Below are positions 14,546-52,537 of a stretch of DNA of 64,000 nt, in pieces. Under the pieces are notes generated by a model. The model worked only from the letters and a program-made list of their open reading frames with translations, was not told where the DNA came from and ran no database searches. Position 1 is the first letter of the stretch; every line of letters starts with the position of its first letter. Source of the DNA: Bryum argenteum (lineage: Eukaryota; Streptophyta; Bryopsida; Bryales; Bryaceae); NCBI GenBank assembly GCA_037043015.1, contig CM073324.1:18740097-18804096 (forward strand), written 5' to 3'. Made by a program: the position numbers and the translations under genes.

Positions 14546-22813
<8,268 letters not shown>

Positions 22814-26160: not shown

Positions 26161-26258
26161 AGTAACTCATGGTCATAGACCCGACCATAGACATAGAGAA
26201 AGTCAAGCACAGTATCATAGTTTAATCCTCAAGGTCGGGTCTATGACCATGAGTTACT
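26161..26258. repeat. Perfect 25-bp inverted repeat with 48-bp loop
   Basis: The arm at 26161-26185 (AGTAACTCATGGTCATAGAC...) is exactly complementary to 26234-26258. It lies in the 5' flank of AP2 copy A, beyond the promoter. The matching flank of copy B (about 31,740-31,775) keeps only one diverged arm. It could be a small foldback insertion or a hairpin locus. Confidence 0.75.
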
Positions 26259-28359: not shown

Positions 28360-28430
28360 AGAATGTACGTTGCTTTTCAATTGCCAAGAATCTGTTGGCT
28401 TGCGTGACCAATATCGTGGCTCTATTCTTC

Positions 28431-28470
28431 TGAAGGACGTACTCGTCGTGCTGCCAAGACGGGTACCGAA
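28431..28470 (+). pseudogene. Fragment of PRP28-like helicase exon (motif VI), copy B
   Basis: Forty bases match the exon starting at 22271 of the PRP28-like gene, with the same AG before the exon, but the helicase residues have changed ([10 protein letters not shown] to GRTRRAAKTG). The rest of the helicase tail is absent. It marks the left part of the second copy of the PRP28-tail/AP2 segment. Confidence 0.75.
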
Positions 28471-29060
28471 TTGAGTAAAAGCTGCTTTTCGGATTTATCG
28501 AAAATTTGTACGTTTCTTAATCTGCCTTGGAAGGTTTCACTACTGCGATATTATCTTTCACCTGCATATTATGCGTGAAATGTACTGTTTTGCATTGTGT
28601 TTGAACGTTACGCTTTGATTGTCTTTTGATGTGAGTTGCTCTACGTACAATGCCAGTGCCTCGTCATTGTCATGACACATACACAGCTATCTTTCCTGTG
28701 CTTGCATGTCGAGCATTTGAGGTTGTGATTTCATCGCGGAGTTCACCTCATACCAGCTTCAACGAAGTCCGGTCTCTAGAATATCTGACACTCATATTTC
28801 CAACTCCAAATACCAAAGATATGCAAAGTGCACGTTTCATTCTAAGCATCTGCTAATCCCTCTCTCTTCATCCAATATTGTTCTTCATCCAATATTGTCC
28901 GAGAACTGTACAGTGAGTTTTAACAATCATAGCTCAAATTGTGGGATGCTGCTAATTCCTCCCACGTCATTCAATCCTATCAAGACAAATATACACCGAA
29001 GTAATAACCTAACCAAGCTCTAATTGTACAAGGCAGTGACATTGACATTCTCTACACGTA

Positions 29061-31034
29061 TCAGCCTGAGATCCAGTCAGGTCCGAATCTTTGCTGCTCC
29101 CGCAGACATTGCGCACCATCAAGGGGAAAATCAGGTGGAGTGGGAGAAGATGGAATAGAAGGCGGCGGAGACATCATGAGAAAGTCCAATGCCATTCCCT
29201 GACCCTCAAAAGAAAACTGCACGTGAATACCGTAGTTGGCCGAACTATTAGCACCTGGATGTTCGCCGTCTCTGATGTCTTTGAAGCTGCTGGGTGATCT
29301 CAAAGAAGGGCACGACAGATTCTCCACATTTCGTACCGATAGGGCATGCTGCTCTTGTAACGTACCCGTAACTTCATCTACACCAGATGCATGCACACGA
29401 TTTGGCTCCCTCGAGCCAGCCATGGGATCCCAATTATTCCAGGATTGAGGTTCACACATGCCATGGTTTCTTTGGTCGGCATTCCCATCACTTGGACATG
29501 GAGAGAATGTTGCGGAAAACGCAGGAGTGGCGACCGTGCAGGCTCTCCATGCCGAATCTGCAACTGCGACCTGATGGGAAGGAGTAAAATTGTGCGCGGA
29601 GATCGATAACCTGCGCCGCTTTGCGTTCATCCTCTCGAACATCACCTGTTCTTCGTCATCGAATTGTGCGTGGCTGTCACAGGAAGGCTCCGATGGACTC
29701 CTGAGGTTGATCCAGGATGGACCGGTGGAGACTTGCTCTGCTCCATCCTCAACTTCTGCGATGCACATAGAACTGGTAGGTGAATAGGAAGGAAAATCCA
29801 AAGCTCTTCATTCCGGCAGGCCCTGCTGCGCTCCAGATGTATTGGTGATGAAAAATCCACCAGCAACTTCTGCAACCCCAAGACTATCCTCCGCCATGCC
29901 GAAGTTGACCAAACCTGCCGTGGCCTCATGGGGAAGCGAGAGTTGAGGTTGAGAGGTGTCATCGTCTCCTTCGCCATCGACCTCCCTGTCGGAATGAGGA
30001 GGTAAAGGGAGGGTGGTGTATATGGATGATACCCACTTTGCTGGCTCCTTCACGAAATTCAACTTGTCTTCAGCATTTATGTTGGCCGGTATGGGCCTCT
30101 CCTCCAGAATGTTGGGGGTGTCTGAGAAGTTGAGAGGTTTACCATAGTAGTGAAATGCTACATCCACGACGCGGGCAGCTTGAGTTTGAGACTTGAATTC
30201 ACCAAAATGCACCTTGGTATTCTTTGGGGGCTTCATCTCTGCTGTCCACCTCTTGTGGTCCTCGCGGTAGCGAACTCCCCTGAATAGCTTAGTCTCTTTA
30301 CGAGAGTCGCTTGGTGGATCCCCCTGAATACGCGGTGCAGACACTCGGTGAAAATAGTCGATGGTTGATCGGCGTCGTCTCTGGAGGTGGGAGTTGGGGT
30401 GGTTCATCCGCTTGCTAAAGTCGACGACATCGAACTGCAGTTGCCAAACGACGACATGATCGGACTGATGCACGCGGCATGGTGCCGCGGAGCTTCGCTC
30501 TGCAAGTTGAAGATTCGGATGAGGCCACCAAGGTAGTAATGTAATACTGACGGCGTCAAATGATCGAGAAAAGAGCCCATTCCTTCTCCTTGTTGTAGGA
30601 GTATGAATCCAGGAATACCTAGTGGAATAGCGATGGAAGGAGGAAAGGGGCCTTCCTTGCTCACGAGGAGGGACTGATGACGGTGGGAAGGCGCAGCTTG
30701 TCATCACAGTGGTGCTGGCAGTGCTGCTGTCGGTGTGAAAAACTGCTGCTCGTAGCAGTGGCGATGACTCAGCCTGTTGGCAGAGATGGTGAAGCACCTC
30801 GACGTCTTTCAATTCACAATCTGGGTCCGCTTGCCAGTCTAGTGCCTCCTGCCTCGCGGGTGGTCTGCTCAAATCCAGTCGGGAAATGGACAAAGCGTCG
30901 TGTATAACTGTGGCGACAGCGCAAGCCCTGTAGAATTGAAATCGACCTTCGAATGGGCCATATCCCGTCGCATACACCCAGTTATATAAATTGACCTCGT
31001 CGATGATTCCTGAGGTGTCGATAGCGAGAGCCAT
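29061..31034 (-). pseudogene. AP2/ERF-domain gene, copy B, with one premature stop
   Basis: Paralogue of the intact gene at 23630-25552 over its whole length, with the same ATG context. The AP2 domain is preserved (RGVRYREDHKRWTAEM, VHFGEFKSQTQAARVVDVAF). After GAQQGLPE the codon that is TGG in copy A is TGA (29810-29808); the same frame then continues without break for about 249 more codons to 29061. One G-to-A change therefore removes the C-terminal third while leaving the DNA-binding domain. It might still make a truncated 408-residue AP2 protein, or be a recent pseudogene. A TATA-like GTTTATATAC is kept at 31301-31310. Confidence 0.75.
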
Positions 31035-31449
31035 GGCGGAGAGCAGAGAGAGAAGACAATGGGGTGGACGCGACGTTAGGAACTACACACACTACCCAGC
31101 AAGCCTACTTCTACAGATGGTGCTAGGACGCGACGACGGAATTGGGAGGAGCCATGAGCAAATGAAGTGCGACAGGATTGATCGACGAATCCAAGCTAGT
31201 CAGGGACGAAAAAGCCAGAGCAGCGCAAAACAGATGTGCAAACAACCTACGAGACGAGTCCTCAACATGATTCGCAGCTCCGGACCTCGTCCCCACCGAA
31301 GTATATAAACAAAGGAATTGAGACATAGACTAGGGGGGAGGTGCGTGGGGAGGGAGTGGGGAGAAGTGGGGTGCGTGCATTGGGTCCTACGTGGTGGCTT
31401 CAGGCAACACTGTTGCTCACCCCGTTATTAAATTGTTCTTGCAGACAAT

Positions 31450-32369
31450 GAAATGTGTAGGGCCGGGGGAGTGAGGGGGGTAGGGGGGAGGATGTTGACT
31501 ATGAACTATTGAGGTTACAGATGAGGGGGAGGCTTATTACGTGTTGACATGCGTGTACATTCTTCCAGGAGTGTAGGCTCGAGGTTGACTCACCGATAAT
31601 AATATTGAGAATCTTCACAAGTCAGTTTTTACAGAGACCAAAATTACTCAGCAATTTTTACTTTCACAATGATGCTCATTATTATTTACAAATTCAGGTG
31701 GAGTTCGGCTTAGCGCATACCCATGTCCAAGCCTAGTTTAGTCCTCAACGTCAGGCCTATCATTGTGGGTTAGTGTTTTCCTCAGGCATATTTAGAGCTC
31801 AATTTTTGTATTATTTAGGATCATGTAATTAGCCAAGCTTGTGTTTCTTGAATGGTGATGGGGATTATGATTTAAGATTCTAAGAAAAAAATCATATGCC
31901 ATCCTAAAGTATACAGATATGTATATAACATTTGAAAGTATGCTTATATGGAAGTTTTCTTACAGAAATTATTCATTTGAATATATGCACTTATATTTTA
32001 ACATTTTAATTATAAGTCACGCAGATACATTCATTGGGTGTGATGATCATCCACAGACTTATGGCAATTTTGTACCTATGTGAATTGCTTGTAATTAGTG
32101 GACTGTGTCTGAAAGTTGGTTGGAAAATTTTAAGGGTTGAGATGTTATAGGTTTTGTTTTGTTGATTGGATGTGGGTTTTTTAATAAATGATATTCCTAG
32201 TTAAAATCATTAAACTGCATCGAAATTGTTCTAAATAGATCAACGTACACAATGTAGTCTTTTATTACAAATATCGCCCTCAAATCAAAGAGGTTAGATA
32301 TATTATAGACTAATGTAGAGTATTTGGTTTACCAAACAAACTACACACTATAATAAGGATTGGGTATTC
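31450..32369. other. AT-rich flank of copy B, no gene seen
   Basis: The part to about 32,330 is diverged but alignable with the upstream flank of copy A (about 26,200-26,790; shared AATTAGCCAAGC and GTGTTTCTTGAATGGTGA blocks), so the duplicated segment reaches here. No coding signal. Confidence 0.6.
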
Positions 32370-32879
32370 GGGCAATGGTAAGCTTGGGGTATCACTTTTT
32401 GGACACACTAATTAGGTTATTTTTATTGAAAGCCTCCAAAGTTTGTCTAATTTAGTCATTTTAATCAAGTAAAAAGACCCTAAAATAGAAAATAAAATAT
32501 CATGCACCTCACTGAAATCAAAGTATATATGCCTATAGATTTTCTTTTAGATTTTTTATTTTTTTTGGATCCATTCATAGATGAGGGAAAAAGTGCTGAA
32601 TTTGGGGATTTGCAGGCATTATGGTGCACAATGAATTAACTTTTTTATTATTAAATAAATCATTTTGTATTCTATACAAGAAGATGTAGGTCATATTCAA
32701 AAATTATATTAAAATAAAAATGGTTGATATTCCATTTGCTTGATTCAATGGATTTTAGATTATTGGGACATGACTTACTTTTTCAACTAAAAAATCAAAT
32801 AAAATTACTTCAGAATATTTTTTTTAATTCTTAATTTTTTTTCTTGATACATTATAAGTATAGACAACTAAAACCACAT
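32370..32879 (+). repeat. Left half of a dispersed repeat interrupted by the 14-kb transposon
   Basis: This segment matches the reverse complement of 55189-55698 almost base for base, including AAGCTTGGGGTATCAC at its start and GTATAGACAACTAAAACCAC at its end. The homology stops exactly at the transposon border and resumes at 46983. Confidence 0.9.
32876..32879. repeat. Target-site duplication ACAT, left
   Basis: ACAT occurs once at the matching point of the uninterrupted paralogue (ATGT on the plus strand, 55189-55192) but twice here, flanking the transposon at 32876-32879 and 46983-46986. Confidence 0.9.
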
Positions 32880-32909
32880 AACGGATATTTAACTAATTAT
32901 GGACTAATT
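32880..32909 (+). repeat. Left terminal inverted repeat of the transposon
   Basis: Thirty bases starting AACGGATATTT. Mismatches with the right terminus fall at positions 6, 20 and 26 only. Confidence 0.9.
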
Positions 32910-33053
32910 CCGAACTTATGGATATTTTCACTTAAAACATAAGTATCAAAATGTATGGCAGATTAATAAATAATAGAAAACCAAGCAAGATATATTGAAA
33001 ATCAAGCATTATATATTGAAAAGTGCATGTAAAATAAAAAACTATCTAAATTA

Positions 33054-33922
33054 TATCGGCCGAAGGCCAATACAACTAAAACCGCTAAACCTTGAACCCT
33101 AAACCCCAAACCCTAAACCCTAAACCCTAAACCCTAAAGACCCTGAACCCTAGACCCTAAACCCCGAACCTTAGACCGTAGACTACAGTTCCCGTCCCCA
33201 ACCCACATTAGTGAAATTAGAGACGGACGGACCGCCGATAGAAGCCCAAGGAATATGACGAAGTAGTAGTAACAATATCGAACTCAAACTTAGAAAAGGA
33301 ATCCAAAAGGTTGCACACTCATTCATACACGATCAATATGATTCGTAGGATACATGGATACAATGCCATGAACAGAAAAGTCCAATATCGGCCGCCAGCC
33401 GAGAAAAGCGGAGTACATTAAAAGTGTACGATACAATGATCGCTACATTAAAGAGAGAGTAGGATATAGTGTATCGGAAAGCCATAGGTAGCTAAGTCAC
33501 ATATCGGCCGCCAGCCGAGAAACAGTAAACTATAGAGAAGGAGAAAGTACAACAAAGCAACCAATAAACGCTACAATCGTGAAAACAATGAATATACTCC
33601 AATCAATTGTCATGGATAGGGAAGACCGAAAACAAGAGTAAAGGAATGAACTGTAGCATATTGATAATGATGAGTATGGCGAAGCAGAAACACAACGGGT
33701 ATGCACGGATTATAGACACTAATCGCAGTAGTGAGGTGAGTCGGATAAGAACCAGTGGGTAGAGCGTGGTGTCGGCCGGCAGCCGATAGGAGGTCGGAGT
33801 TGCTGGTGGGAAAGCATATGAGATCAGTATCGGCCGGCAGCCGACAAGTGCAGAGCAGGTCCGTCATAGAGTGGGAGGATGGGAGGGAGGGTCACATGAA
33901 GCGTGTCGGCCGGAAGCCGATA
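33054..33922. repeat. Left subterminal palindrome cluster (6 copies)
   Basis: Nineteen-bp copies at 33054, 33386, 33502, 33770, 33828 and 33904. The local form is mostly TATCGGCCGGCAGCCGACA, with TRTCGGC and GCCGAYA arms. They lie downstream of the putative transposase gene, in non-coding DNA. Confidence 0.9.
33083..33175. repeat. Interstitial telomere-type repeat (CCCTAAA)n, degenerate
   Basis: About a dozen perfect and near-perfect CCCTAAA/CCCTGAA/CCCTAGA units lie some 200 bp inside the left end of the transposon. This is the plant telomere heptamer, but the run is short and embedded, so it is not a chromosome end. Confidence 0.85.
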
Positions 33923-35976
33923 CAAATGTTTGATGAACAGCTTAGAGAACAGCTCCAGCGGCCTCAAGGTTAGACATTGCAGCTGCAGCGGCCTGGTTGG
34001 GAATGATATGTGTAGCTGGTGGACCTTTCCTTGCATGTCACGGCATCCTATGAGAGAACAGAACAATGTTGACATTCACAATCTGAGGAAGACAAGGCTC
34101 CTTATGCCAGCGGCGAGTCCAGCACTCCCTAGCGATGATCGATTTTCCTTCCTTCTTAGCTCGCATAGGGGTCCACCATTCGATCTTGAAATTGCCATAG
34201 GTAGGACCAGGCGTTAGATCAACACACTCAAGGACACGCCCCAGCCAGACAGGAAGGAAATGGTCGTCGCTGGGGCGGCATAAGACGAAGTCGCCAAGAA
34301 GAACATCACGGAATGGATTAAAGTTGAGCCTCGGTCGGTCTTTAGCAGGACCACAGTAAGGATAAGCATCTGCATCATCCTCAGGCGTAATGTCCTGTGA
34401 GAAAGAGGAGCTAGATCCAGAATCTTGGAGGCACGAGAATGATCACGAGTCCAGTCTGAAATAGGCCAAAATCCTTCTACAAGAACGTCAGGGGTAGACG
34501 GTAATGGTGAATTGATCTCTCAGTTGATTCGCTCCCAGTAACCAACAGGTCCAGCCATCTCCTCGCAGTAACGTCTGTTACGCGCCATACCGGACTTCCA
34601 GAACTCAATGAACTTAGATATACCGTGCTTGATGAAACCCTATTTGTCATTGCACTCCGAGGCACAAGCTTGCTCCTTCATAGAGTTCAACTTGTTGGGG
34701 TTCACCTCCGTGACGCCCCATAACGGCTTAAATGGAACAGGACGTGGGTCGCCAGATGGAATTCTAGGTCTTCCTTGCTCGTCAGAAGTCCACATCTTGA
34801 CGGGGGGACCGGGTGGGAGCCATGAAGAATCAGTGGATTTCCGCTTATACCTCATGACAGGCCAGCCGCGATTGTCACCGTCCTCTTCGACCCAGAACTT
34901 GAAAGGATGCATATCACCAAGTCCAACAATTTTGTTGACACCGTCGTGATGAAAGTCCTTGACGTAGGATTTGAAATCAGCAACCTCTTGAACGAATTCA
35001 GGAATGAAGGCGACTGTCTTCTGCGAGTCCATAAAGGCCTTCATGAGATCGCCTAGAACGTACGTGTTCTTCCGCTTGATGAGCTTGGAAAGGTAACTGA
35101 AATGGGCATCAATATCCTCGTGAGTGTGGCCAACAATGAGGAACCCAACAACCTCCTCCTTAAAAATGCGCCGAGCGGTCAGCAAAGAGCAGAAGGCCAT
35201 CACAAATCTGTTCTTATTGTCCTTCGCGGAATTATCAAGTTGCAGGAATAGCTTACGCGGAAGCGGAACGAGCGGACGTCCAGGTTGTGAAGGACCGAAT
35301 TGAGTCCCGGTGGCGGGTGGGATCGATGCGAAACTCCTAGACTTTCCATGTAGCAAAGCTTGGAAGAAGCTGTTCTGTGGAGGTGTGGGAAAGAGCTCCC
35401 GGGATTCACGTACCGGTGGCTTCTCAAGCGCTCGCAGTACACGACACAAAGAAGAGATGGTGAAGTTGGAATCCCCCGGCCAGAGCCAAAGCAGTGGAGT
35501 AGTGTGCGTACGCACCATCACCGTGGCCGTGTGTCAACATGCCGGTAACAGAAACCGGAATCTGTCCAAGGCCAGCAGTGGCTTTTGTAATCCTCTGCAT
35601 TCTGGGAATGGCCGTCTTCGTGGTATCCATCTTGTCATGGATTATACATAGAAACTCAGAGGGGTTCTCGCAGATCAAACTCCAGCCACCATATATATGG
35701 CGGCAGGCACGCTGATAATTGAGATGGCGATTCCGGTCATCGACTAATGCCTGCCATTCATCACAGCCCCTTGGGTACTTGGATATGCACTCCACAAGGA
35801 AGTCACACTCGACACTTCGAGAAAGTCGCTCCCAAATGACTTTAACCTCGACATTCTTGAAGTGGTTCTTCCGAAGCTGACTGATGGTGGACTGAGAGAC
35901 CGGCTTATGGTGGCATTTGACATTCACCTGGAAGGAGGACATAAGGTAGGACGTTAACATCCAGGTCGACGCCTCC

Positions 35977-36172
35977 TATCGGCCGGCAGCCAACAAGAGT
36001 GCACTAACATAAGCAGGAACTAATCGCTAACGGAGTATCGGCCGGCAGCCGACAAGTAGCAGAGCATTGACTAGATAAGGCACGAAGGAATCGACAGAAG
36101 AAGCTAAAGCTGAGAGGTCTAATTGGAAACAACCAAAACATAGCAACCTAGTGTATCGGCCGGCAGCCGACA
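35977..36172. repeat. Three palindromes inside a transposase intron
   Basis: Copies at 35977, 36036 and 36154, all of the TATCGGCCGGCAGCCGACA type (the first has CAACA at its end). They lie between the splice donor at 36209 and the acceptor near 35,945. Confidence 0.85.
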
Positions 36173-37795
36173 TCGAGGACGAAGAGGAAATAAGAATGAT
36201 TGGGACTTACTTGATTCACTTGCTCGCGCATGGTGTCCCAGTTGAGCGCAGATGGAACAACCTTCAGGTTGTCAACTCGCTTATTTCCAACAAGCCTGAA
36301 CTCGTTAGGCATCTGGTCCGCATTCTCGTCAATAATCTTCTGCAGGGTTGCTCTAGCCTGAATCGTATGCGGGCGTGGACGAACAGCTCCAGAATTGCCA
36401 TGCGATCCGCTCACTGATCCACCCATTGCTGCAGCCTTGTAGACGTGGTAAGCTGATCTGGAGACACCGTGAATGATATACCAAGCATTCTCGCAGACCT
36501 CAACATTCTCAAGCGTGATGAATTTCCTGCCCCCCGGTTCATGGACATGAAGTTGACTTTGAACGGCATACGCTGTCTCTCTTCTAATTTCAAAAGAGCA
36601 AGCATAGTACTTACGACGAAGGATTCGAGTAGACTCTCACGGAAACGTCGTGACAAAGACCTACTCTTGCAAAGAAAAGACACAAACCGAACTAACTAAC
36701 CTTGCGAATTTCATCATCCGAGGTCTTCGACTTAAGCCTAGACCCAGTAGTCGCTTCCTTTGACAAGAGTCTACGACGAACGGACCTGTAGGGATTCCGA
36801 GGCACGCCCTGAAGTCCCGGATGATCGAAGGTGGAATTCTGAGCGGCCTCAGAGCAGAGCATGACAATGTCTGACAGGAGTTGACCGCCTTCAAGTCGAG
36901 TCCGCGAAAGAGGCCATCTCATTGTCGTGAGCTGTAGGGTATCGTGCTCTGATATGAACATTACTCCGACATCCAGACGCCAAGAAGATCCTCATCGCAG
37001 CTTCATCCGGAAGATGAGACTTGAATGATCGCCGCCCAAAAAAGGTATGATCCTCGTTCAGTAAGTCGCAGCACTTGTTCCTCCAGTCGGGCCGATCCAG
37101 GACCGCCTGAGGTTCCGGTCGCAAATGTTCAGTGTCGCGTGAGACAGAGGGGCGAAAGTTGACAGCGCTATCGGCGCCAGAACTATCCGAAGAGGGCTGT
37201 GAGAAAATTCCGTTGTCAAACGGCGTAGCATGAAGATCATTAGCAGATTCATTCCCTTGAGAGGAGAGGACATCGACGCGGGTTGGCGGATTCGTCCCGA
37301 CCCACAACCGTCCGCCCCCTCAAAATGAGAGAGACCGGTTGAATGATGCGGGTTACCCGAACTACCACAAGATGCAGAGAGGTGAGTCCTTGACACCGTC
37401 ATCGCCGGTTGGTTCAACCTTGACACTCCTCGGGCGTGGGGTGTATCGGCACCGCCAATAGAGTTGCCATTCAGCGGCGTAGCGTCGAGGGGACGAAGTT
37501 TGTAACCGCTCCAAAGGATTTCGTACCCAAGGCACTCGCCAAGCAGAGTGAGAGAAGGATTCTCACAGTAAGCTACAAGACCAACAAAGTCCTTATACAC
37601 AGTAGTGAGCTTGACAACTGCAAAGAAGCTATGCGGGACGCGGAAACCCTCCCAGGTGCCCTTAGGCGAGCACTCAACGATGACGCCCACTCCGACACAG
37701 TGATGATCGGTCCCGCCAACATGCAATAAAGCAACCTCCATGTTAACAGAGAGAGTGAGGAACTGATTTATGGGCTTCTCATCTAATGGGCCCGG

Positions 37796-37814
37796 TGTCG
37801 GCTGGCAGCCGATA
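37796..37814. repeat. Single palindrome within transposase coding sequence
   Basis: TGTCGGCTGGCAGCCGATA is read in frame (as IGCQPT on the minus strand) in an otherwise open stretch, so the palindrome has either entered coding sequence or marks an unrecognised small intron. Confidence 0.75.
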
Positions 37815-38158
37815 GGCTCGGATGATTCATCGAGGTTATCAACGAAGGGTCTCACGTCATTCACGTCCCATGTAATGTTGTTACCAGGACACTGACTAAG
37901 AAACTTAACGCTAGGAGTGGGAAACGAAATGATCATCTCAATATTTGGAGCGACGTCAATAACATGGACGTCTAAAAGAAATGGCTTTCGCGAGATAATT
38001 CGGTTGATGGAAGCAGTACCAGCATAATAAAATTTTGCGAATGACAGAGCGACAATCGCGCCCTTTTTCTATACGCCATCTCCCGAACCGTCGTTTCTTG
38101 AGAAAGTCATCAATCGGTTCGGTTTCCAGCATGATGGAGCATGATCTCTTCATTGATC

Positions 38159-38527
38159 TATCGGCTGCCGGCCGACACAATTGCGAATCTAATAGGTTGA
38201 GGAGACGTAGGAAGTAATGAAACAACCTGCAGAGACACACAACCACAGGTATATCGGCTGCCGGCCGACACAATTGCGAATCTAAAAGGTTGAGGAGACG
38301 TAGGAAATAATGAGACAGCTGCAGTAGACACAACCACCTGAGGTATCGGCTGCCGGCCGACACAATTGCGAATCTAAAAGGTTGAGGAGACGTAGGAAAT
38401 AATAAGACAAAATGCAGAGAAACAACCACCTGAGGTATCGGCTGCCGGCCGACACCTTGATCTGAAGCTCCCGGGAGACAGGACAATGACGGACACGTGA
38501 TAGTTCTATATCGGCTGGCAGCCGATA
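38159..38527. repeat. Palindrome-bearing 92-bp tandem repeat in the transposase leader
   Basis: Units start at 38159, 38252, 38344 and 38436 (spacings 93, 92, 92). Each begins TATCGGCTGCCGGCCGACA; the first three are followed by ATTGCGAATCTA, GGTTGAGGAGACGTAGG and an AACCAC block, and the last is partial. A further full palindrome lies at 38509, and two damaged halves at about 38559 and 38581. The array sits immediately upstream of the transposase ATG, the expected promoter/leader position. Confidence 0.9.
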
Positions 38528-39060
38528 TAAGGAGATCCGACTGAGTCCTAAGGAATCGTATCGGCTGGCGACATTCACTATGTCGGCTGGCGTCTAATAC
38601 CAGGGTATTGAGCCTCTAGCTATTAAATCGTGCAAATTGAAGTAATAAAAGGCTGCTATCTACCGCTCTCTATATAGAAAGAAGCGCAGTAACACGGGGA
38701 ACACAATGACGCAATTCTTGACTATTTCTGGCCAGGGAAAACTACAAAAACAGCAAAGCAAATCGCTCAGAGCGTCAGGAAACACGCGAGAAATGAAATA
38801 AAATGTCAGAAACAGTTGGGAATGGATAGCCATCTGAAATGACAGAGCGTGGGTGGCGCTCAAATCAAGAAGATTTCAAACTCAAATTTCAAATGATTTT
38901 GAATTTTTGGAGGGCTAATTGATAGGCAGGATGAAAAGCATGATGAAACGGATGAAAAAATTTAAATTGACGTTTTGGCGGCGCGAGCTTCAGAAATTTT
39001 TGGCGGGCGGGCAAGCGGATGCGAGAGCGGGCAAGCCGATTGAAAAGCGGGCAAGGCGCA

Positions 39061-39079
39061 AATCGGCGGGCAGCCGATA
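39061..39079. repeat. Palindrome between the divergent gene blocks
   Basis: AATCGGCGGGCAGCCGATA, slightly degenerate, in the spacer between the transposase start (38153) and the ParB-like gene start (39564). More partial copies and half-sites (CAGCCGACA) follow at about 39,360 and 39,430-39,555. Confidence 0.75.
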
Positions 39080-39118
39080 GCCATCATTGCGAAAATTGCG
39101 GAGGGGGTAAACCGTTCA

Positions 39119-39350
39119 CCCTCCCTCATTTGCTCTCATTTGTAATTTGCTCTCCTCTCTCACTTTTGCGCTCTCCTCTCACTTGTGCTCTCTCCACACT
39201 TTCTCTCCTCTCTCATTTGCACTTGCTCTCTCCTCTCATTTGCTACTTGCTCTCTCATCTCTCCTTTCTTGCTGTCTTCCCTCCTCTCTACTTTCATGCT
39301 TTCTTGCTGTCTTCTCTCCTCTCCTCTCTGCTTGCATGCTTTCTTGCCTT
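39119..39350 (+). repeat. Pyrimidine-rich low-complexity tract
   Basis: About 230 bp of CTCTCCTCTC/TTGCTCTC repeats lie in the presumed promoter or 5' leader of the plus-strand gene block. C and T dominate the plus strand. Open frames here are compositional artefacts. Confidence 0.8.
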
Positions 39351-39384
39351 AGCCGTTTCTGTGCTGGCAGCCGATAGTATTCAG

Positions 39385-39405
39385 TTTTAGGGTTTAGGGT
39401 TTTTA
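39385..39405 (+). promoter_or_regulatory. Telo-box-like motif upstream of the ParB-like gene
   Basis: TTTTAGGGTTTAGGG lies about 165 bp upstream of the candidate ATG at 39564. Telo-boxes (AAACCCTA) are known promoter elements of plant growth-related genes; function here is inferred from position only. Confidence 0.4.
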
Positions 39406-39676
39406 GCAGCGGCCGATATTTTTTAAGGTCCAGCCGACAGCTTTGCGCGGGAGCGGAGGCAGCAGCCGACACACCTTACGCACCAGCCGACAGCTTTGCG
39501 GGAGAGCGGAGCACTCCTTACGCACCAGCCGACATCGAGCACACGCCAGCCGATACATCTCCGATGGCGTCGTCGAAGAGGTAAGCCGATTTAGCTCTTC
39601 TGTGACGTTTCAGTATGCGCCGTTTCGATTGGCGTCGTTTCATTTGCATCTTTTCGTCAGGTTCTCTTGCCTTGTG

Positions 39677-40051
39677 TGTCGGCTGCCAGCCGATAGCTTG
39701 TGAGCTGTCGGCTGGCAGCCGATAGCTCGGGTGATGCATTAACTTAGAACGCTGTGCTTTGTGTGCCGGCTGGCAGCCGATAGCCCATTTGCTGTAGCCT
39801 ATTCTCTTGTAATGCTTAGTGTACTCGCGGGTCGTTAGTAGCTCCTCTGCCTTAGCGCCTTACACTGCCTTGTGTATCGGCTGGCAGACGATAGCTTCTA
39901 TTCTGTCGGCTGGCAGTCGATAGCATGCTATTTGCTGTAGGTCATTAGACTAGCTATCATCGTAACTATTGCAGTGTCGCGCTGAATATTTTTGCATTGT
40001 CGCTATCGGCTGGCAGCCGATACCATGGTTGTTATCGGCTGGCAGCCGATA
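39677..40051. repeat. Seven palindromes in intron 1 of the ParB-like gene
   Basis: Copies at 39677, 39706, 39764, 39875, 39904, 40004 and 40033, mostly TRTCGGCTGGCAGCCGATA; four are exact palindromes or differ only by A/G at position 2, and the others carry one or two changes. The intron (39581-40106) is the densest site in the element. Confidence 0.9.
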
Positions 40052-43042
40052 AGATATTCGTTTACTGATATACAGTAATGTACGTTTACATGTGTTCATT
40101 CTGCAGAAAACCACCAGCCCTAGCTAGACTGCTTGGTGTGGAACTTGCACACATGGATGTCAAGCATGGAGACATCGTCCCGCGTGCAGTATAGGCCGTT
40201 AATCCAGTCATCCAGCAGTGGGGACTATGCTAGAGAGTCCTCCCCAGCCAGCGAATCGAGATTGCTTGCTTGTACCTCTACAAGGGTAATATGATCCCTG
40301 GGTACGGTGATGTGCTCGAAATTCTGGAGAATGTGGAGCACGTCGACATTCTCATAAGCCTACCGGCCCTGAGAGATCCCTCTGCCCCGACCGACTACAT
40401 CGCCGTATCAATGCCGTGGAGACAATGCATTGAGGCGGTTTGCGGTGAGGCGGCGAATAAGCAGGGCATGACCTTCAATGGAGCTGCGCCTGCTACCGTC
40501 GAGGAGTTCATGGACGCGTGGTCCGCTATCGATTACGCAAGGTTGGCTACTAACATCGCCATCAATGCCTTAGCGGCCGAGAGGCTCCGTCGTCGTCGAA
40601 GAGGAAGCCCACTCCTTCAAAGAAGAAGCGACCTGCAGCAGAGATGGTCGATCTTGGCGATGACGGCGATGAAGACGTCCAGGGGTCACAAGATCCCAGC
40701 AAGCCCAAGAGACGGGCAAAATCGACTAAGGATGCCATCGAGTATACCTTAGACGAGGCCCCGACTAAGCAAGAACCAAATGACATCCAAGATGAAGGAC
40801 GTCGAGATCGACGCAATTTACAAGGCATTGAGACTCGGTCTTGGTCACCTCTTCCCCTACAAGAAGCGGAGGTCGCCGGGGTTATTCCTAGCGAGAAGCT
40901 ACACATCGCTCGGGACGAGCTCAAGCGACAGACGCATCGCGAAAGATCGTCTGGGCGGTATTTTGATTTTCTCACCGCTCTTATGAGGTTACGCTCTCGT
41001 GATCGGTGGCGGCCGATACATCCTCCGATCATCTCGATTCATGATTGTTCATTTGTTATGTTCTTCGCAGTGAAGGCCATCTACAAGGGCTACGGGCGAT
41101 CCGGAAGAAGCCTGAGATCCATGGTATCCCGCTTAAACGGGAACCACTTGAAACCGATACCGGGATGATGGCTGTGATGGATTCCATGCCAGGGGAGTTG
41201 GATATGTGGAAGCTAAACGACACAGACCCCGACACCGCCCCGAAAGTCCCCTGGTGGCAACACCCTTCCGTTAACTGGTATATCATCGGTGGTCAGCATA
41301 CGGTGACAGCCTGCCGCGAGTTGGCGGACGAGTACCCCGAGGGATCGGAGGCCAAGAAAGAGCTTCTCGAATTCGAGATCATCCCAGTGTTCTCAAGGGA
41401 CCCCATCGATCTTGTGAGGGTGTCGAACGCCCTCAATCTCAATATCGCAGAGAAGGTCGCCAAAGAGAACTTCCGATCGTCTTGCGGAACTCGGGAGGGC
41501 GGCATGGAAGCGTCTCGGGAGCCCCGAGCCACACAAGGGAGGCGGGAAGCCGTCGCCGGCCTTCGAGTATGGTTACCCTCTGCTTTATCTATCGGCCGGC
41601 AAACACATTTTTTTAATCTAGAGCTATCGGTACCGCACACCGACAACTCTCTTCTTCTTGCCTTCATACAACTAATGCTTTATGGTTGTTCATCAGGCTG
41701 CGAAGGCGCAAGTCATGGCGCACTTCGTGAACGAGAAGGTGTCCACAAAGCTCCCCTTAGTATTCGTTGGTGACAAGGCCTGGAATACTTGGATTGAGGT
41801 CTTCAATGCCTGGGAAGCAGGTGAACTCATTGGCGACGACGGCAAGGAGCCGGGACTGATCAAGCGGACGCCAATCTCGAACATTACGAAGACTGACCTT
41901 GTCCCCACACTCGGTCTTCGTGACTGCGACCTTGAAGAGCTTCTAGCGGAGGTGATCGCAAATCGTGTCTGCATCAAGGCCAACAGCAGGACGAAGGACA
42001 GACTCACACTGCCGGATTGGTGCCGCGACAAGAAGCTCAACCGGGTAATTATGAACGAGCTTATGTATCAGCTCAATAGGCATCCGCTTCCCTGCAAGGA
42101 TGCGAACTGGTCGCCATACCTAGATTCAGACTGGGACAAGTTGGCGAAGGAGCATCATTTCACCCCGAGTGTCGTTCGCAACATCTGGACAGACCTGAAG
42201 AAATTCATGGATGGAAATGAATGGCTTAATGGACGCGCCAGCGCAATGAATCCGACGACTGACAAGTCGAAGAACGGTGTGGCGCCGCCCATTTTCAGCA
42301 CCATTCTGCAAGCGTATTCTCAGGTCGAGGTTAGGACGGAGGAGGTCGATTCCGAGAAGGCGCATTTCGAGTGCAAATTCGCGGACACAGTTGCAGACGT
42401 CTTGCACAAGATCGACGCAGCTGTTGGCCATGCGGGCATTGCAAAGGACCCACTCCTAATCGTCTACTTCGGGTACAGTCATGGCGGAGTCTCGGTTCCA
42501 ACCAGTAGGTCGGAGCTTCGTGCGCTCGCGGAACGGTCGAAGGTCCCACTCACGAATGAGGACCTCACAATGGACGGTGACGACGTCACTCCGACTCGGC
42601 CTCTGTATCCAATCCCAATGTTGTTCATAACGAGCGCGAAGCAACGGGATCTTCTTTGTGCTGTCTGGACAACCGAAGATACGGAGTGGTATGTCCAGAC
42701 GGTCTATTACAAGCCGTGTCTTCGGGGAGGGTTCAAAAAGACGGTGACGGAATCGTCCCCGCTTGTTACGCTCAACATGACGTACCCAAAGGTACGCGGG
42801 GATGATGATCGTTGGACTACTTTCAGGAAGTATACTGGAATCGCCAAGCCAGTCGATTGGTTCCAGGCATCTCCTGAAAGTGCTGTCGATTGGAATGGGG
42901 GGGTTCTGCGGTGTCGACCATGACACGCTCGAGAAGTTGCTGAAGCCAACTCTCACCGCGAAGAAGGTCACCGTCATCAACGTCTGGGGTGGCGGAAATG
43001 TCACCGAGCTTGGATTGGTAAGGCATCCTCTCCTTTGCTTTG

Positions 43043-43473
43043 TATCGGCTGCCAGCCGACACCTTCTAATATATGTCCATTTCACCTTATTCGTTTCCCA
43101 GTACTTGTTTGGTTCCCTTCTGTCTCTTACTCTTGTTCATGGTCTTGCAGAGAAATGGGAGGTCCGTGATCGAGTTCGTCAGAAGTCAGGACCATGTCAA
43201 GTTGGCAGTCCAACGTGCGAAGGGACTAAACTTGGATAGGGTCGAGCTTCCACCGTCGTCTTCCGAGGATATGGAGACCGACGCTGGTCCCTCAGTCTCG
43301 TCTCGCGAGCCTGCCAACCCTGGACGACGTCCCGCCTCTGGTGTTAGGATTCAGGAAGTGCTGGATGAGATTGACCTTACTCCTTTGTCACTCATACCTG
43401 CAACCACGCCGACGGCTCTACCTGAATCGACTGCCACACTTATCCCTTCTCCTGTATCGGCTGCCGGCCGACA
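43043..43473. repeat. Two palindromes at the end of the ParB-like gene
   Basis: The copy at 43043-43061 lies in the last intron (donor 43018, acceptor 43150). The copy at 43455-43473 lies in the last exon and is translated in frame as VSAAGRH. More degenerate copies are near 41001, 41590, 43645 and 44092. Confidence 0.85.
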
Positions 43474-43869
43474 CATTGTCACCGTGTCAGCTCCGCCTCC
43501 TGATACTACAGCAGATCTTCCTGCATGTGCTACGACCACGATGCAGGTTGATTTGCAAAACGCCCCGGAGGAAGAGGTTATCGTCGTGGAGCAGGTTCCT
43601 CTGTCTCGTGCCCCTCAGAGTCCTTCGCAGTCCGTTCCTGCCCTTATCGGCCGGGGCAACGACATCTCCCGCTCCTCCATGTAGGGAAGTTCAGAGGGCT
43701 CACTCGGCATTGCAGGCGTACTATACACGAAGGGAAGTTGCTGTTGATTCGGCGGCCCTCCTGGAGGACGACGCAAACGACATCAGCGCAACAAATGAGG
43801 AGGCTCTCCAGGAGGACGACGCGTGTATGACATCATCGCCCCAAACGAGGCGGCCCTCGTGAGACGACA

Positions 43870-44940
43870 ATGAGTTCGCCATCGACGCCCGAACGAGGCT
43901 CTGTCTCCACTGCGGCGGATCATGCTTCCCCGCAACAACAACAATTACATGAAGGTTTGTCCTAGACGAAGGCGTTTCTTGTATATAGTCTCTTCTCACC
44001 ATTGCATAAGCATTTTAGGTTCTAGAATGGATTTGGTATTAGAATCTCCTGGTTGCAACGTGCTCGGCCGCCTCCTTCCCCTGTGACATCAGATCGGTGC
44101 CCGGCCGACTCCTATTATCGTTTCACGTTTCCTTTGTATTCCTTGTCTCCGATGTCGATTTCTCTCAACGGTGTTTTTCGCTTATCACCGCCAAACCGAC
44201 AAGTCATCATGTCCTTTCTTTGCACTATTATTCTCCCTTCTGTCATGGTGATTGATGTTATTTGTATCCACTGCCACCTCTGTATCGCTCGTGTCTCACT
44301 TTGTTGTTTAATTCTTGCTGCTCTTTTGCTTATTGTACAAATGCCCTAATCTCTTGCAAAGTCAGGTGAATCTGAGAACGAGGCGTTCGTGGACTCCGCG
44401 TCTCATGGATCGCGGCAGGGCACCTCCATATCGACTCCTCTCGTATCTGGAGGGCAGGTAGCCCGTCGAAAATATTTTATTCTGTTCGACGTGAATGGCA
44501 CTCTCATTCACTACGTTCCTCGTAGGATCATTTCTGGTGGGGATCGTCCCCGGTGGCAGAAGCAGGAGGCAAGGGCAAGACCTGGCCTTCAGTCAATGCT
44601 TCAGTTTTGCGTCGATGCAGACTGGCAAATTTGTTTCTGGTCCTCGGTCACTAAGAAGAACCTTACTCCGAGGATCGAATTTATTCGCTCTGTTTTTCCA
44701 AGGCTCCCTAGGAACATCTTGGAGTTTGATCAGGGATATTGCTTCCGGAGTTGCTACCGGGAGCCTGATAATCCTGACCGGCCCTTCTTTATTAAGTCCA
44801 TTGATCATCTCCTGGAAATGAGTCCTGACCTCAGGGCTCGTGGTGCTAATCCCGAGAACATGCTTCTCATCGACGACTCCCCCTACAAGAACGTTTTGAA
44901 CAATCCTTACAATGCGTTCCACCCTCACACTGTACTTTGA
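43870..44940 (+). pseudogene. FCP1-like HAD phosphatase with premature stop
   Basis: Exon 1 43870-43954 (MSSPSTPERGS, then a Gln run) joins in phase to exon 2 from 44366. The domain reads ILFDVNGTLIHY (nucleophile Asp at about 44488), FWSSVTKKN, and LLIDDSPYKN (about 44,862), the three signature blocks of NIF/FCP1-type HAD phosphatases, which remove phosphate from proteins such as the RNA polymerase II C-terminal domain. In the canonical DxDxT the second Asp is Asn here, which should weaken general acid/base catalysis. TGA at 44938 interrupts the frame, but the same frame continues open for 63 codons (GPYFRGFCTSLFDLYNSQ) to a TGA at 45130, so the original protein was probably longer. It is encoded within the transposon, 186 bp after the ParB-like gene. 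Confidence 0.75.
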
Positions 44941-45600
44941 CCTCGGAGCGAGAATGTGAGTGGCGGCCCTTACTTTCGAGGATTCTGCACCTCATTATTC
45001 GACCTCTATAATTCTCAGAAAAATGTTCTTGAGTTTATTCTGGAGCACGCAAGGTTAGGGAAGCGCCGTATGCTCCCGGGAAATCCGCTGTACGAGCAGT
45101 ACAGGACGCTTGATTTTGGTAGGAGGGAGTGATCATGGATTGATTACTTCTCGACCTTGGCGTTCGAGTTGTTCAAGATGGTGGAGCAAGTTCAAGATGC
45201 TCCAGCTTGTCTACCGCCGATACATACACCTCTTGTTCCCCTACATAGATTACCATATGAATACATGTCCTTAGCATGGGTGTATAGATTTTTCATCATC
45301 CAATTCGATGATCTAGCGAGCTAGAATTTGTAGATCACTTAGATTTTCTTCTAGTTCTCAGAAATTTTCTAGGGTTCCACTCGAGACTTTTTCTAATCAG
45401 ATATTTCGAGGATGTTTAATTTGTGAAGACTCTCTTAATCTTAACGTGGAGAGTTTTCTATCATATTCCCTTTCTTGGTATCGGTTCTTATGTATGGTAT
45501 TTTCTTTTGTTTTCCTTTTTGCTTTAGGATCCATGGCTTCTTCTTGTCATTGTCTCCTTGTCGTCTTTACTCATGGACTCTCTTGTTTGTTTTCTTCTTA

Positions 45601-45619
45601 TATCAGCTGCCAGCCGACA
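45601..45619. repeat. Palindrome upstream of the second HAD-like gene
   Basis: TATCAGCTGCCAGCCGACA, one base off consensus, in a probable intron or leader ending at the acceptor before 45732. Confidence 0.75.
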
Positions 45620-45731
45620 CTTCTATGTTTATTTTGGTTTTGTCTTCTTGTCATTTCACGGCCGATATGCCCGCCTTATCATTCTATTCTTTGTCTTTTG
45701 CGTTTCTAATCATCGTTCTGACTTATTTCAG

Positions 45732-46304
45732 GCTTGTATTGTTCAGGGTGACTGCCGTTTGGATTATGACATTGCTGGTACTTCTACCTCCAAGAAATGT
45801 ATCATTCTATCCGTATCTGGATTGCTTTGCTACATCAGCCCTAATATTCCGACGGATCGTTGGAATGCTCACCGTAATGTAATCAAGCGGCCAGGTGTAA
45901 CGAAGTTATTTGCCATGTTGTTGGAGCGCTTCCATGTTGGTCTCTGGTGTACGATGCCGATGCGTGACTTGAGGCCTCTCCTATCTTACATTCTACCTTC
46001 TGGCGTCATCGACAGGCTATCCTTTGTTTATGGTAGAGAATTTTGTGATCGTCCTATGAATTTTCCGTGGTGTTACAAGCTCTTGAAGACTCTCTATTGC
46101 AAGCGTCGTTCCCGTGAGGTGTGCAGGCCCGACCAACTTCTCCTCGTTGATGTTTCTCCACTAGCATTAAGGTTGGCGCCGGATGCTGCCTGCTACATGC
46201 CTTATCCTTTTCGAGGTGATTTGACGTCTTCAAGTACTACTATTCCCAATGTAGCTACAGATATTCTTCCGTTCATCTACCCCTTATACCATTCGAATCA
46301 TTAG
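45732..46304 (+). CDS. HAD/FCP1-like protein lacking catalytic aspartates (partial)
   Basis: An open frame after a clean acceptor (TTATTTCAG at 45731) ends at TAG 46302. It keeps the layout of the FCP1-like neighbour: CIILSVSGLLCYISPN in place of the DxDxT loop, GLWCTMPMRDLRPLL at the second motif, and LLLVDVSPLALRLAP at the third. Both catalytic aspartates of motif I are Ser, so phosphatase activity is not expected; it may be a pseudo-enzyme partner or a decayed copy. The 5' exon or start codon was not identified. No stop or frameshift interrupts this exon, unlike the neighbouring genes. Confidence 0.55.
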   Translation, partial: ACIVQGDCRLDYDIAGTSTSKKCIILSVSGLLCYISPNIPTDRWNAHRNVIKRPGVTKLFAMLLERFHVGLWCTMPMRDLRPLLSYILPSGVIDRLSFVYGREFCDRPMNFPWCYKLLKTLYCKRRSREVCRPDQLLLVDVSPLALRLAPDAACYMPYPFRGDLTSSSTTIPNVATDILPFIYPLYHSNH

Positions 46305-46422
46305 TCAATATATGAGTCTTTCTAATAGACCCGGTCAACTTCATTATGAAGTTGCTCATTCCCTCAAGTACGGTGTTCCTCTCAGATCGCAGTGTTCCTA
46401 GGTTTTACTTAGTTTGCATGCC

Positions 46423-46937
46423 TATCGGCTGCGAGCCGACACTTCAGGCGATCAGCCGGTGCAGCACAACCTGCGATGAGCCGGTCAGCACTCGCACTCG
46501 TCGACTTATCGCTGTCGGTCTTCAAATCGAGATTTGCCCGGGATTAATATCCTGGATTGTTGAATATGGAGCGCCAGAAAGGAGGAAGTCGATGATGGAG
46601 TCGCGTTGCTACTTATCGGCTGCGAGCCGACACCGCTGCAGTTCACCTATGTTAAACTTCTGTCTTCTTCGATACCTAGTGTTGTTGTATATTGTATAGG
46701 GTGTTGTAATATTTATTGATACGAAGTTAGTGCAGTCGGCTGCGCGCCGATACCACATGCTAGTGGGACGAGCTTTGTTTGGAATATTCGCTTATTCTTT
46801 TAATGAAACGGATTTGTTTCCTAACTCTAAGAGTGTATTCATCTATATTTTCTCCGACTTGCTAATAATGTCAATCATTCTCATTCTCTACCTTGCCTTG
46901 TTTTGCTCCTTCGAGGTGTGTCGGATGGAAGCCGATT
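46423..46937. repeat. Right subterminal palindrome cluster (4 copies)
   Basis: Copies at 46423, 46614, 46734 and 46919. Here the local form is TATCGGCTGCGAGCCGACA, differing from the left and central forms in the middle bases. The last copy is 45 bp from the right end of the transposon. Confidence 0.88.
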
Positions 46938-46952
46938 GATTTCTGGACTGTC

Positions 46953-46982
46953 AAATTGTCCAAAATTAGTTAAATACCCGTT
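46953..46982 (-). repeat. Right terminal inverted repeat of the transposon
   Basis: It ends AAATTAGTTAAATACCCGTT; the reverse complement aligns with the left terminus at 27 of 30 positions. Confidence 0.9.
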
Positions 46983-47103
46983 ACATCTAATGAAGTCTTA
47001 TTGTATTACAGTTTAAAAATGGATATGTTTGTCACACCAGCATAGAGTGCAATTGTTCATGGGACAACCTTTTTGGGTACCCCAACCAGACTATCACCCA
47101 TTC
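46983..47103 (+). repeat. Right half of the interrupted dispersed repeat, including ACAT duplication
   Basis: It starts with the second ACAT (46983-46986) and continues CTAATGAAGTCTTATTGTAT, matching the reverse complement of about 55,070-55,192. Homology fades after about 47,103. Confidence 0.9.
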
Positions 47104-51148: not shown

Positions 51149-51598
51149 TTTCACATCTAAACAGAAAGAATTTGGACCCATAATCAAGACAGATGATCAT
51201 GCAGGCCACGATGAACTATCAAAGGAATACCGCTGCTTACAACCAACAACCACAATAAGATCATCATACTCCGAGACAACGCCTAAGTATGGACTTGCGG
51301 ATTATGGTAGAAACAGCGAATAGCTTGACCAGCTTCATGTCCAGTACAATAGTGAAGCATTGATCTTTCCATTTAAGAACCTATAGGATTCAGGTCTGAT
51401 CATTCATATATTCAAGTGCAGTTGCTGGTTACTTGCGATTGATATATTTCTCATTTATAGGAACATATCATTTCAGAATGTAAGCACACGAGTGAGATGT
51501 TTCAATGCCATTTCGTTTGCTCTTTGATCATCAGTTTAGATTGATAGGATGAGCACTAAAGAAATTATCTGATCATGTTTGGTTTCGTCTACTGTTGC

Positions 51599-51863
51599 AG
51601 ATGTTGGTGCAAAGGAACAGCCCCGTTCCTCCAGAGCTCGCTCGACACGAAGCCTCTAAATCTACACCAGGTTTCTTCTCTTCTGTGTCTTTACTTTTCG
51701 CATCTACAAACCCCAATACCCCATACATGTATGTGTTTCGGGAGATCTGATTTGTCATGGTAAGAGATGATGATATCCCAATTCACTGAACTCTTTACAT
51801 TTAGAAGCTTCCTCTATTTTGATTCTGATACAGGGTCAATACCAGATCGTCCACCGCGGTGAA
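51599..51863 (+). pseudogene. Last two coding exons of PRP28, duplicate fragment (copy C)
   Basis: 51601-51670 encodes [20 protein letters not shown], one residue different from the genuine exon at 22518, with its acceptor and donor preserved; about 51,834-51,863 encodes SIPDRPPR and then meets TGA where PRP28 has an Arg codon. No other helicase exon is present. It cannot make a helicase; it marks the left end of the third copy of the segment. Confidence 0.9.
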
Positions 51864-52537
51864 ACGTCGCGTGATTGTTCGCAAACCATTAGTGAGAGAA
51901 TTTGGGACACTTACTACGTCCTAAAGAACTTCAAGACATCTGCAAATGAAAGTAGTACGGCAGTTTCTTACGCACGGCACGGTTTGTGAAGTTGTAGCAC
52001 GTACTGATGGGATTTTGTGATTCAAAGAGTGGGATCGTTCTACGATGACTGCAAGATTGTGTATTCTGACGACTGTTGCAAACTCAACTTATGCTTGTGT
52101 ACGGATTTGAACATACTTAGTCGGTCATTCAACTTATGGAAAAACCAGATTGTATGTTACTATGAAACTGCTTTGGGAGGACTTTTACTGCATTAAAAGA
52201 AGTCATCCGAGGTCTAAGTTGCAACTTATGCTTCAATGAGGTCCGGTCTCTAGAATATCTGACACCGACATTTCCAGCTCCGATTGCGAAGTGCACATTT
52301 TGTCATAAGCATGTGCTGATCCCTCCCGTTTCATTTATTGTCCGAGAATTGTACACACACTGAGCTGTAGTCAATCTTAGCTCTGAATTTTGAGATGCTG
52401 CTAATCCCTCCCACTTCGTTCAGATTAACTGTCAGGCTGAGAACTGTACACCGAAATTCTTACCAATCCTAGCTCTAGTTGTAAGACGCTGGAGAACTGG
52501 CCACAACGCATTTTATCCACGAATTAGCCAATTTAGC

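Follow-up and report, generated by a model that had tools for sequence, protein, structure and literature searches.

A giant DUF7869 transposon of the moss Bryum argenteum with a conserved four-gene set and a dispersed, lineage-specific palindrome

Sola1-1_Ec32 is a transposon of 21.5 kb from Ectocarpus in which a gene with ParB-like and methyltransferase parts lies opposite the transposase gene, and the authors of that work propose that proteins of this kind bind the transposon that encodes them and modify its sequence (PMC12477816). Giant transposons with a ParB-like gene are thus already known. In Arabidopsis, the element-encoded protein VANC21 binds a short motif that is repeated, often in tandem, in the noncoding DNA of VANDAL21 and removes silencing marks, and related VANDAL families use different motifs (PMC5735166, PMC10398659). 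In bacteria, the ParABS system uses a parS site of 16 bp (PMC8494293). Here a stretch of 64,000 nucleotides from the moss Bryum argenteum (GenBank assembly GCA_037043015.1, contig CM073324.1, positions 18,740,097 to 18,804,096 of the forward strand; hereafter the window) was analyzed. It contains a transposon of 14,103 bp (32,880-46,982 of the window) with genes for a DUF7869 protein, a ParB-like protein, and two NIF/FCP1-like proteins, and with a 19-bp palindrome dispersed through its noncoding DNA. What is new is that a DUF7869 element unites a conserved set of four genes with a selected palindrome, the candidate self-tag, that differs between lineages.

Like Sola1-1_Ec32, the element is a giant DNA transposon in which the ParB-like gene and the (here putative) transposase gene lie on opposite strands. 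As far as the two can be compared by description, they differ in that the Ectocarpus ParB-like domain is fused to a DNA methyltransferase, and the available account of Sola1-1_Ec32 mentions no dispersed palindrome. The likeness to VANDAL21 and VANC21 would be one of mechanism only, namely a family-specific short motif repeated in noncoding element DNA. However, the VANC motif YAGTATTAY is non-palindromic, whereas the motif found here is a 7+5+7 palindrome. VANDAL ends are of the Mutator-like element type. With ParABS the element would share a palindromic site and a reader of the ParB fold, the reader here being putative; unlike ParABS, it is a eukaryotic transposon with tens of sites in 14 kb and a weakly supported fold, and no ParA was found, no search for ParA having been made.

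The borders of the element are exact: on the left ACAT is followed by AACGGATATTTAACTAATTATGGAC, and on the right GTCCAAAATTAGTTAAATACCCGTT is followed by ACAT. The 4-bp target site duplications (32,876-32,879 and 46,983-46,986, unstranded) were assigned by border reading and copy comparison. The terminal inverted repeats lie at 32,880-32,904 (plus strand) and 46,958-46,982 (minus strand; AACGGGTATTTAACTAATTTTGGAC when read inward) and agree at 23 of the first 25 bases. Over 30 bases they agree at 26; the original prediction had counted 27, so that its inverted termini stand with a corrected count. An unfilled paralogous insertion site is found on the minus strand at 55,075-55,698, with ACAT at 55,189-55,192. 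The left flank (32,370-32,879) matches 55,698-55,189 at 97.6% and the right flank (46,983-47,100) matches 55,192-55,075 at 98.3%, the two matches overlapping solely at ACAT. The borders, duplication, and unfilled site that had been proposed for this locus were therefore confirmed by re-reading and by the flank matches. The sequence at the insertion site is a dispersed repeat with at least 40 copies in the genome, each at 99-100%, and the unfilled site is thus a different copy of that repeat rather than an allele.

Further copies with the same termini had been anticipated, and they are plentiful in the same genome. In the 258.8-Mb assembly of 25 contigs that was searched, the 25-bp end motif was found at 376 places with up to 2 mismatches, while the reversed control gave 0; among the matches listed there were at least 40 left and at least 40 right ends. 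Ten more full copies were read, giving 11 elements of 13,845-14,211 bp with a pairwise identity of 91.8-97.3% (family 1), and all 11 are flanked by perfect 4-bp duplications. The same was found for 20 of 20 additional copies read at both ends, in which the end-to-end distance is 8.8-51 kb, a spread that we take to reflect deletions and nested insertions. Together with one copy of a second family (family 2), 32 of 32 copies, selected by having both ends among the matches listed, have perfect duplications, which are AT-rich and without a fixed sequence.

The dispersed palindrome went unmentioned in the original prediction. It has the form TRTCGGC-N5-GCCGAYA, with two 7-bp half-sites and a 5-bp spacer. 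At up to 3 mismatches it occurs 29 times in the window, each time inside the element and nowhere else, where 0.01 would be expected. An arms-only pattern with at most 1 mismatch was found 29 times in the window copy and 20-35 times in each of the ten other copies of family 1; the family-2 copy has 56. When the window and family-2 elements were dinucleotide-shuffled 100 times each, the mean was 0.02. A chance origin is rejected by these shuffles and by reversed-pattern controls of 0. Two exact half-site spellings make up most sites: one TATCGGC and one TGTCGGC arm are combined in 180 of 225 exact-arm sites of family 1, and two TATCGGC arms are found in 33 of 46 such sites of family 2.

An alignment of the 11 copies gave 42 site positions. 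Most presumed introns contain some of them, and others lie in the subterminal regions and in the spacer that separates the divergent genes. In window coordinates and on the plus strand, five palindromes form a left subterminal cluster (33,386-33,922), three lie in a presumed DUF7869 intron (35,977-36,172), six between the divergent genes (38,159-39,079; four of them spaced 92-93 bp), and seven in the presumed intron 1 of the ParB-like gene (39,677-40,051; several spaced 29 bp). Others, some of them decayed in the window copy, are found in further introns and spacers (41,001-45,667), at alignment positions 41,001, 41,590, 41,625, 43,043, 43,455, 43,645, 44,092, 44,183, 45,208, 45,601, and 45,649; those at 43,455 and 43,645 fall in coding DNA. 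The right subterminal region (46,423-46,752) contains sites at 46,423, 46,614, and 46,734. Many palindromes are part of tandem arrays with periods of 29, 46, 56, and 92 bp. With approximate exon limits, coding DNA holds 5 of 56 palindromes in family 2, which is 61% coding, and 4 of 38 in family 1, which is 62% coding, the family-1 set omitting the array-insertion positions 39,679, 39,716, 39,907, 40,001, and 33,222.

Relatives at about 55-57% identity were identified by tblastn with the C-terminal exon of the ParB-like gene. The family-2 locus (C1:1602000-1621500) holds an element of 14,516 bp that is flanked by an ATGA duplication; the first 25 bases of its left end are identical to those of family 1. 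Its four genes are those of family 1 and their order is unchanged, as had been anticipated for further copies. Between the families, identity is 83% in the DUF7869 catalytic exon and 56-65% in the upstream part of that gene, 40-56% in three conserved parts of the ParB-like protein and 27% in its tail, 44-46% in NIF protein 1, and 62% in NIF protein 2. Eight comparisons covering the four genes gave proportions of synonymous differences (pS) of 0.68-0.79, which is saturated, and of nonsynonymous differences (pN) of 0.10-0.38, in alignments whose edges may take in a few read-through intron codons. Since pN is low despite saturated pS, purifying selection is acting on all four genes as constituents of the element. 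Captured host cargo is accordingly rejected, and the word 'cargo' in the original prediction does not apply to these genes. Noncoding DNA of the two families can be aligned just at the ends, at a telomere-like array, and over short stretches; because it otherwise hardly aligns, the palindromes look maintained. A locus of a third family (L039, L040) has a ParB-like open reading frame (ORF) and 7 palindromes; an approximate search found no element ends there, and it is treated as a truncated copy.

Genomic analysis showed that palindromes tend to lie near the ParB-like gene. Among the first 71 palindromes listed on C1, 63 have a listed ParB-like gene at most 10 kb away, and none comes that close to any of 15 other listed DUF7869 genes. 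Moreover, 12 of 19 palindrome clusters lie near a ParB-like gene, against 0.33 expected at random; the count covers the first 18 Mb, the matches listed, and hits to the ParB-like C-terminal exon, and the expectation assumes evenly spread places. Of the seven clusters that have no ParB-like gene within 10 kb, five are next to the end of an element or to a fragment of the ParB-like core (by eye), and two (911480 and 15675032) have no explanatory neighbour. The palindrome was also found in translated form in homologs from other sources: 17 of 125 ParB-like homologs contain 22 occurrences, against about 1.1 in shuffles (5, 11, and 6 per frame against 0.075, 0.04, and 1.0). These lie mostly near protein ends and appear to be intron read-through. 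For 120 DUF7869 homologs the counts per frame were 5, 1, and 1, against 0.075, 0.08, and 0.45 in shuffles. The test used the best 120 of 201, 27 of 27, and 120 of 178 homologs listed, which are related to one another so that occurrences are not independent, and of which one or more may come from the window's own species. When source contigs were compared by length, 13 lengths were common to the DUF7869 list (93 distinct) and the ParB-like list (90 distinct), which suggests that the two genes occur on the same contigs elsewhere.

A different palindrome was found in a more remote lineage of the same genome. With the family-2 ParB-like core as query, an abundant group at 32-37% identity was detected. 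One of its loci (C6:683500-701000), with a ParB-like core 33% identical over 91 residues, contains 27 copies of TATCCCC-N5-GGGGATA (up to 2 mismatches), in arrays and singly and with the same 7+5+7 geometry, and no palindrome of the TATCGGC type. At the same locus there is also sequence related to the upstream exon of the DUF7869 gene (30% identity, E 8e-18), as well as a stretch similar to NIF protein 1 (E 5e-4). In the whole genome TATCCCC-N5-GGGGATA is found at 1,141 places (control 0), and the first cluster listed surrounds a ParB-like gene.

The DUF7869 gene lies on the minus strand. Its catalytic exon (33,945-35,970) is a 677-residue open frame in copies c4 and c10 and is broken in the window copy into ORFs at 35,424-35,960 and 34,640-35,521; the upstream exon or exons (36,212-38,100, approximate limits drawn by eye) form a long open frame in copy c9. 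The 677-residue exon matches the Pfam profile DUF7869 (PF25273) with E 1.3e-42 and 146 bits (cut-off 26), its sole Pfam match above cut-off, and the proposal of a DUF7869-like putative transposase is upheld in this respect. DDE/D transposases have three conserved acidic residues, the final two of which are about 35-40 residues apart. Candidates for these are the D in IIHDKMD, the D in QLDN..NKN, and the E or D in GHTHEDID, the last two being 39-42 residues apart. They are retained in two remote relatives in the same genome, and a few fragmentary homologs depart from them or lack part. Transposases of this type also have an RNase H-like fold; a profile search of the PDB with the DUF7869 protein gave no credible relative (one match, E 1.8). 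In the open-access literature searched, nothing was found on DUF7869, on the peptide motifs of the element, or on four spellings of the palindrome. The genome is rich in DUF7869: of 1,812 candidates, 150 were scored and gave 151 matches, with some frames near 1,100 residues, and 0 of 14 control genomes have a match. Two copies of another DUF7869 family (L041, L042) have no palindrome, and when they were compared no inverted ends were visible.

Two NIF/FCP1-like genes lie on the plus strand near the right end: protein 1 at 44,368-45,129 (approximate limits) and protein 2 at 45,733-46,398, the frame of which ends at 46,304 in the window copy. Protein 1 matches the NIF profile of Pfam at 26.9-29 bits (cut-off 21.8), and protein 2, at 20.1-20.3 bits, is just below. 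The catalytic motif of FCP1 phosphatases is DxDx(T/V). At this place the window copy has DVNGT in protein 1 and SVSGL, with no catalytic Asp, in protein 2. In both families, protein 1 has DVNGT or DINGT, with the first Asp retained (NVNGT in two copies), and protein 2 has SVSGL, FVSGL, or CVSGL. Because the full catalytic motif is missing in both families, the two proteins are probably not working phosphatases. The assignment of two FCP1/HAD-like proteins thus holds for the domain, protein 1 being above cut-off, but not for the catalytic motif.

The ParB-like gene (39,565-43,960, plus strand, exon limits by eye) has exons at about 39,565-39,581, 40,108-40,963, 41,070-41,545 (the core, of the HWYIIGGQHT type), 41,697-42,990, and 43,152-43,960. 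In the window copy, exon 40,108-40,963 is open just over 40,234-40,749 and the core contains a frame break. ParB-family proteins have a nucleotide motif of the GxxR/GxHR type; the motifs seen here are HWYIIGGQHT and IIDGQHS. When profiles were compared with 13 ParB-like proteins of phages, the HWYIIGGQHT region was aligned with a score of 29.6, against 9.0-15.5 for ten shuffles. When 126 proteins were compared with the phage ParB-like proteins, the score was 34.7, against 9.8-16.6 for 29 shuffles and 29.1 for one more. The protein probably has a ParB-type fold, and the name 'ParB-like' is a fair lead, although Pfam and NCBIfam do not recognize the protein. As a separate observation, weak, non-significant tblastn matches of the ParB-like protein include ParB-like proteins of actinobacteriophages (NC_054724, NC_054726, and others; L044-L056). 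Among the same phage matches are DNA methyltransferases with a ParB-like front part, which echo the ParB-methyltransferase of Ectocarpus. The sole match to the ParB_N profile PF02195 in the genome (C4:16718650-16718760, L097; E 1.49) is outside the listed ParB-like loci of the element.

Taken together, the element may be a DDE-type transposon with a self-recognition system of its own, in which the ParB-like protein would most likely read the palindrome and act in a manner similar to VANC; we put the probability of this reading at about 0.5. The DUF7869 protein would be the transposase of a large cut-and-paste (DDE/D-type) element, acting on the short inverted ends with staggered cuts 4 bp apart, as the motifs and the duplication suggest. 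A sequence-specific protein of the element would bind the 19-bp palindrome. The ParB-like protein is the most economical choice of reader, since ParB dimers are associated with palindromic sites. The 20-56 palindromes across introns, spacers, and subterminal DNA would then mark the whole 14 kb as self. This mark would most likely keep the chromatin of the element open and its genes expressed, as VANC does on VANDAL elements, and it might also help to join the distant ends. The two FCP1-like proteins would serve as binding partners instead of phosphatases.

Several results weigh against this reading. The ParB-like protein has no match in Pfam (including PF02195), in NCBIfam, or in a sequence search of the PDB, the ParB-like protein of the remote lineage likewise has none in Pfam or NCBIfam, and the protein searches found no known DNA-binding domain. 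ParB-like proteins of phages are matched weakly in the profile comparison, with probabilities of 21% and 47% and with one of 30 shuffles at 29.1. In PHROG the most frequent hit is phrog_2020, a family without an assigned function, which was hit by 21 of 27 members with a best E of 0.0059 and over about 16 residues; two ParB-like partition families trail at E 0.14 and 0.52. The palindrome type also switches along with all the genes of the element and not with the ParB-like gene alone. Furthermore, the remote ParB-like locus at C5:10217931 has no repeated palindrome within 9.9 kb; this gene may be an old copy or may belong to a lineage with another type of site. The region (C5:10212500-10222400, L100) has a ParB-like frame of 933 residues, with a core 28-35% identical.

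A further question, compatible with self-recognition by the element, is whether it belongs to a named superfamily, most likely Sola1 or Sola2, so that just the family would be undescribed. We regard this as a serious possibility, somewhat short of even odds. Sola2 elements have AT-rich 4-bp duplications, inverted ends of 12-21 bp, and a Fanzor1 accessory protein (PMC3627910). By description the element is similar to them in its short inverted ends and its AT-rich 4-bp duplication, the latter found in 32 of 32 copies, and differs from them in its accessory proteins. For Sola1 the parallel is the ParB-like gene opposite the transposase of the 21.5-kb Ectocarpus element (PMC12477816), but no methyltransferase match was found among the element ORFs scanned, and Sola was set beside the element by description alone. 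KDZ elements (Kyakuja, Dileera, Zisupton) are giant transposons with accessory genes (PMC12477816), in which respects they resemble the present one, and Zisupton has an 8-bp target duplication (PMC12730594). Membership in KDZ was rejected, as the duplication is of 4 and not 8 bp in 32 of 32 copies and no KDZ match in Pfam was found in the 677-residue exon or in two upstream window ORFs. CMCT transposases (EnSpm, Transib, Lanisha, and others) have a C(2)C and H(3-4)H motif between the second D and the last E, and mostly 5'-CA..TG-3' termini (PMC12730594). This group was also rejected: no C(2)C/H(3-4)H was seen between QLDN and GHTHEDID (protein P0149), and the termini are AACGG..CCGTT. Ginger elements have a transposase similar to the Gypsy integrase (PMC2836005), and no integrase match was found among the element ORFs scanned. 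As for the undescribed look noted in the original prediction, the AT-rich 4-bp duplication and the ParB-like gene both fit descriptions of Sola.

A stronger form of the self-recognition proposal would be a system similar to ParB-parS, in which dimers load at the tens of palindromes, switch, and spread as clamps over the element, and in which private lineage specificities (TATCGGC against TATCCCC) provide a self-tag against silencing. We consider this form unlikely. An equally doubtful explanation is that the DUF7869 transposase, or an FCP1-like partner, binds the palindromes as internal sites at which a transposition complex is assembled over 14 kb. TnpA of CACTA elements offers a parallel, since it uses repeated subterminal motifs. 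Left and right subterminal clusters do exist, a family-2 palindrome starts 65 bp from the right end (position 16802, element end 16866), and the transposase exon is the part best conserved between the families (83%). However, the palindromes are spread through the element with no concentration at its ends, and by eye no TRTCGGC half-site is present in the 25-bp ends. Moreover, none of the 15 other DUF7869 genes listed on C1 has a palindrome within 10 kb, and the two copies of another DUF7869 family (L041, L042) are without one.

Recruitment of a host transcription factor for expression of the element is quite improbable. TGTCGG-N7-CCGACA is the inverted type of site bound by dimers of plant auxin response factors, and the half-site TRTCGG with an inner spacing of 7 bp fits this format; palindromes also lie between the divergent genes and in introns. 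Family 2, however, departs from TGTC, as both arms are of the TATCGG form in 33 of its 46 exact-arm sites, and the related lineage uses TATCCCC in the same genome with the same host factors. No better is the prospect that the palindromes are neutral repeats, produced by slippage and gene conversion and having no reader. The many tandem arrays, with periods of 29, 46, 56, and 92 bp, are what such a process would leave; yet near-exact 7-bp arms survive saturated synonymous divergence, single sites occur in separate introns, homologs from other sources have them, and coding DNA is depleted of them. Lastly, RNA hairpins in element transcripts, acting in splicing or small-RNA control, would suit palindromic sequences abundant in presumed introns but are the least credible explanation, because the arm positions do not pair: A and C stand at mirrored positions 2 and 18 in 119 of 225 family-1 exact-arm sites and are unpairable in a plus-strand transcript, it is arm sequence and not pairing that persists, and palindromes also lie beyond the last recognized exons near both ends.

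Other features of the region can be noted briefly. A telomere-like CCCTAAA array (33,085-33,180, plus strand) lies close to the left end in 11 of 11 family-1 copies and is larger in the family-2 copy. In both families it is found 200-500 bp inside the left end (272-498 in family 2), and the first 700 bp contain 6-11 CCCTAA units in family 1 and 19 in family 2. The array could be a binding place for telobox factors. Outside the element, three related units flank it (23,095-31,614 and 51,578-54,257), their matching parts being 70-80% identical among themselves, and a repeat of 320-370 bp forms a cluster of direct and inverted copies, 85-91% identical, at 59,663-61,608.

For very few systems is there molecular detail on how transposons tell their own DNA from that of the host and resist silencing. 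In the open-access literature searched, no dispersed, lineage-specific palindrome was met in an element of this type. In Bryum argenteum, a palindromic tag has been held through saturating divergence and accompanies a compact, conserved set of genes; in a remote lineage its place is taken by another tag with the same geometry. If the ParB-like protein is its reader, a fold known chiefly from chromosome segregation in bacteria would serve as a transposon self-recognition factor in a plant.

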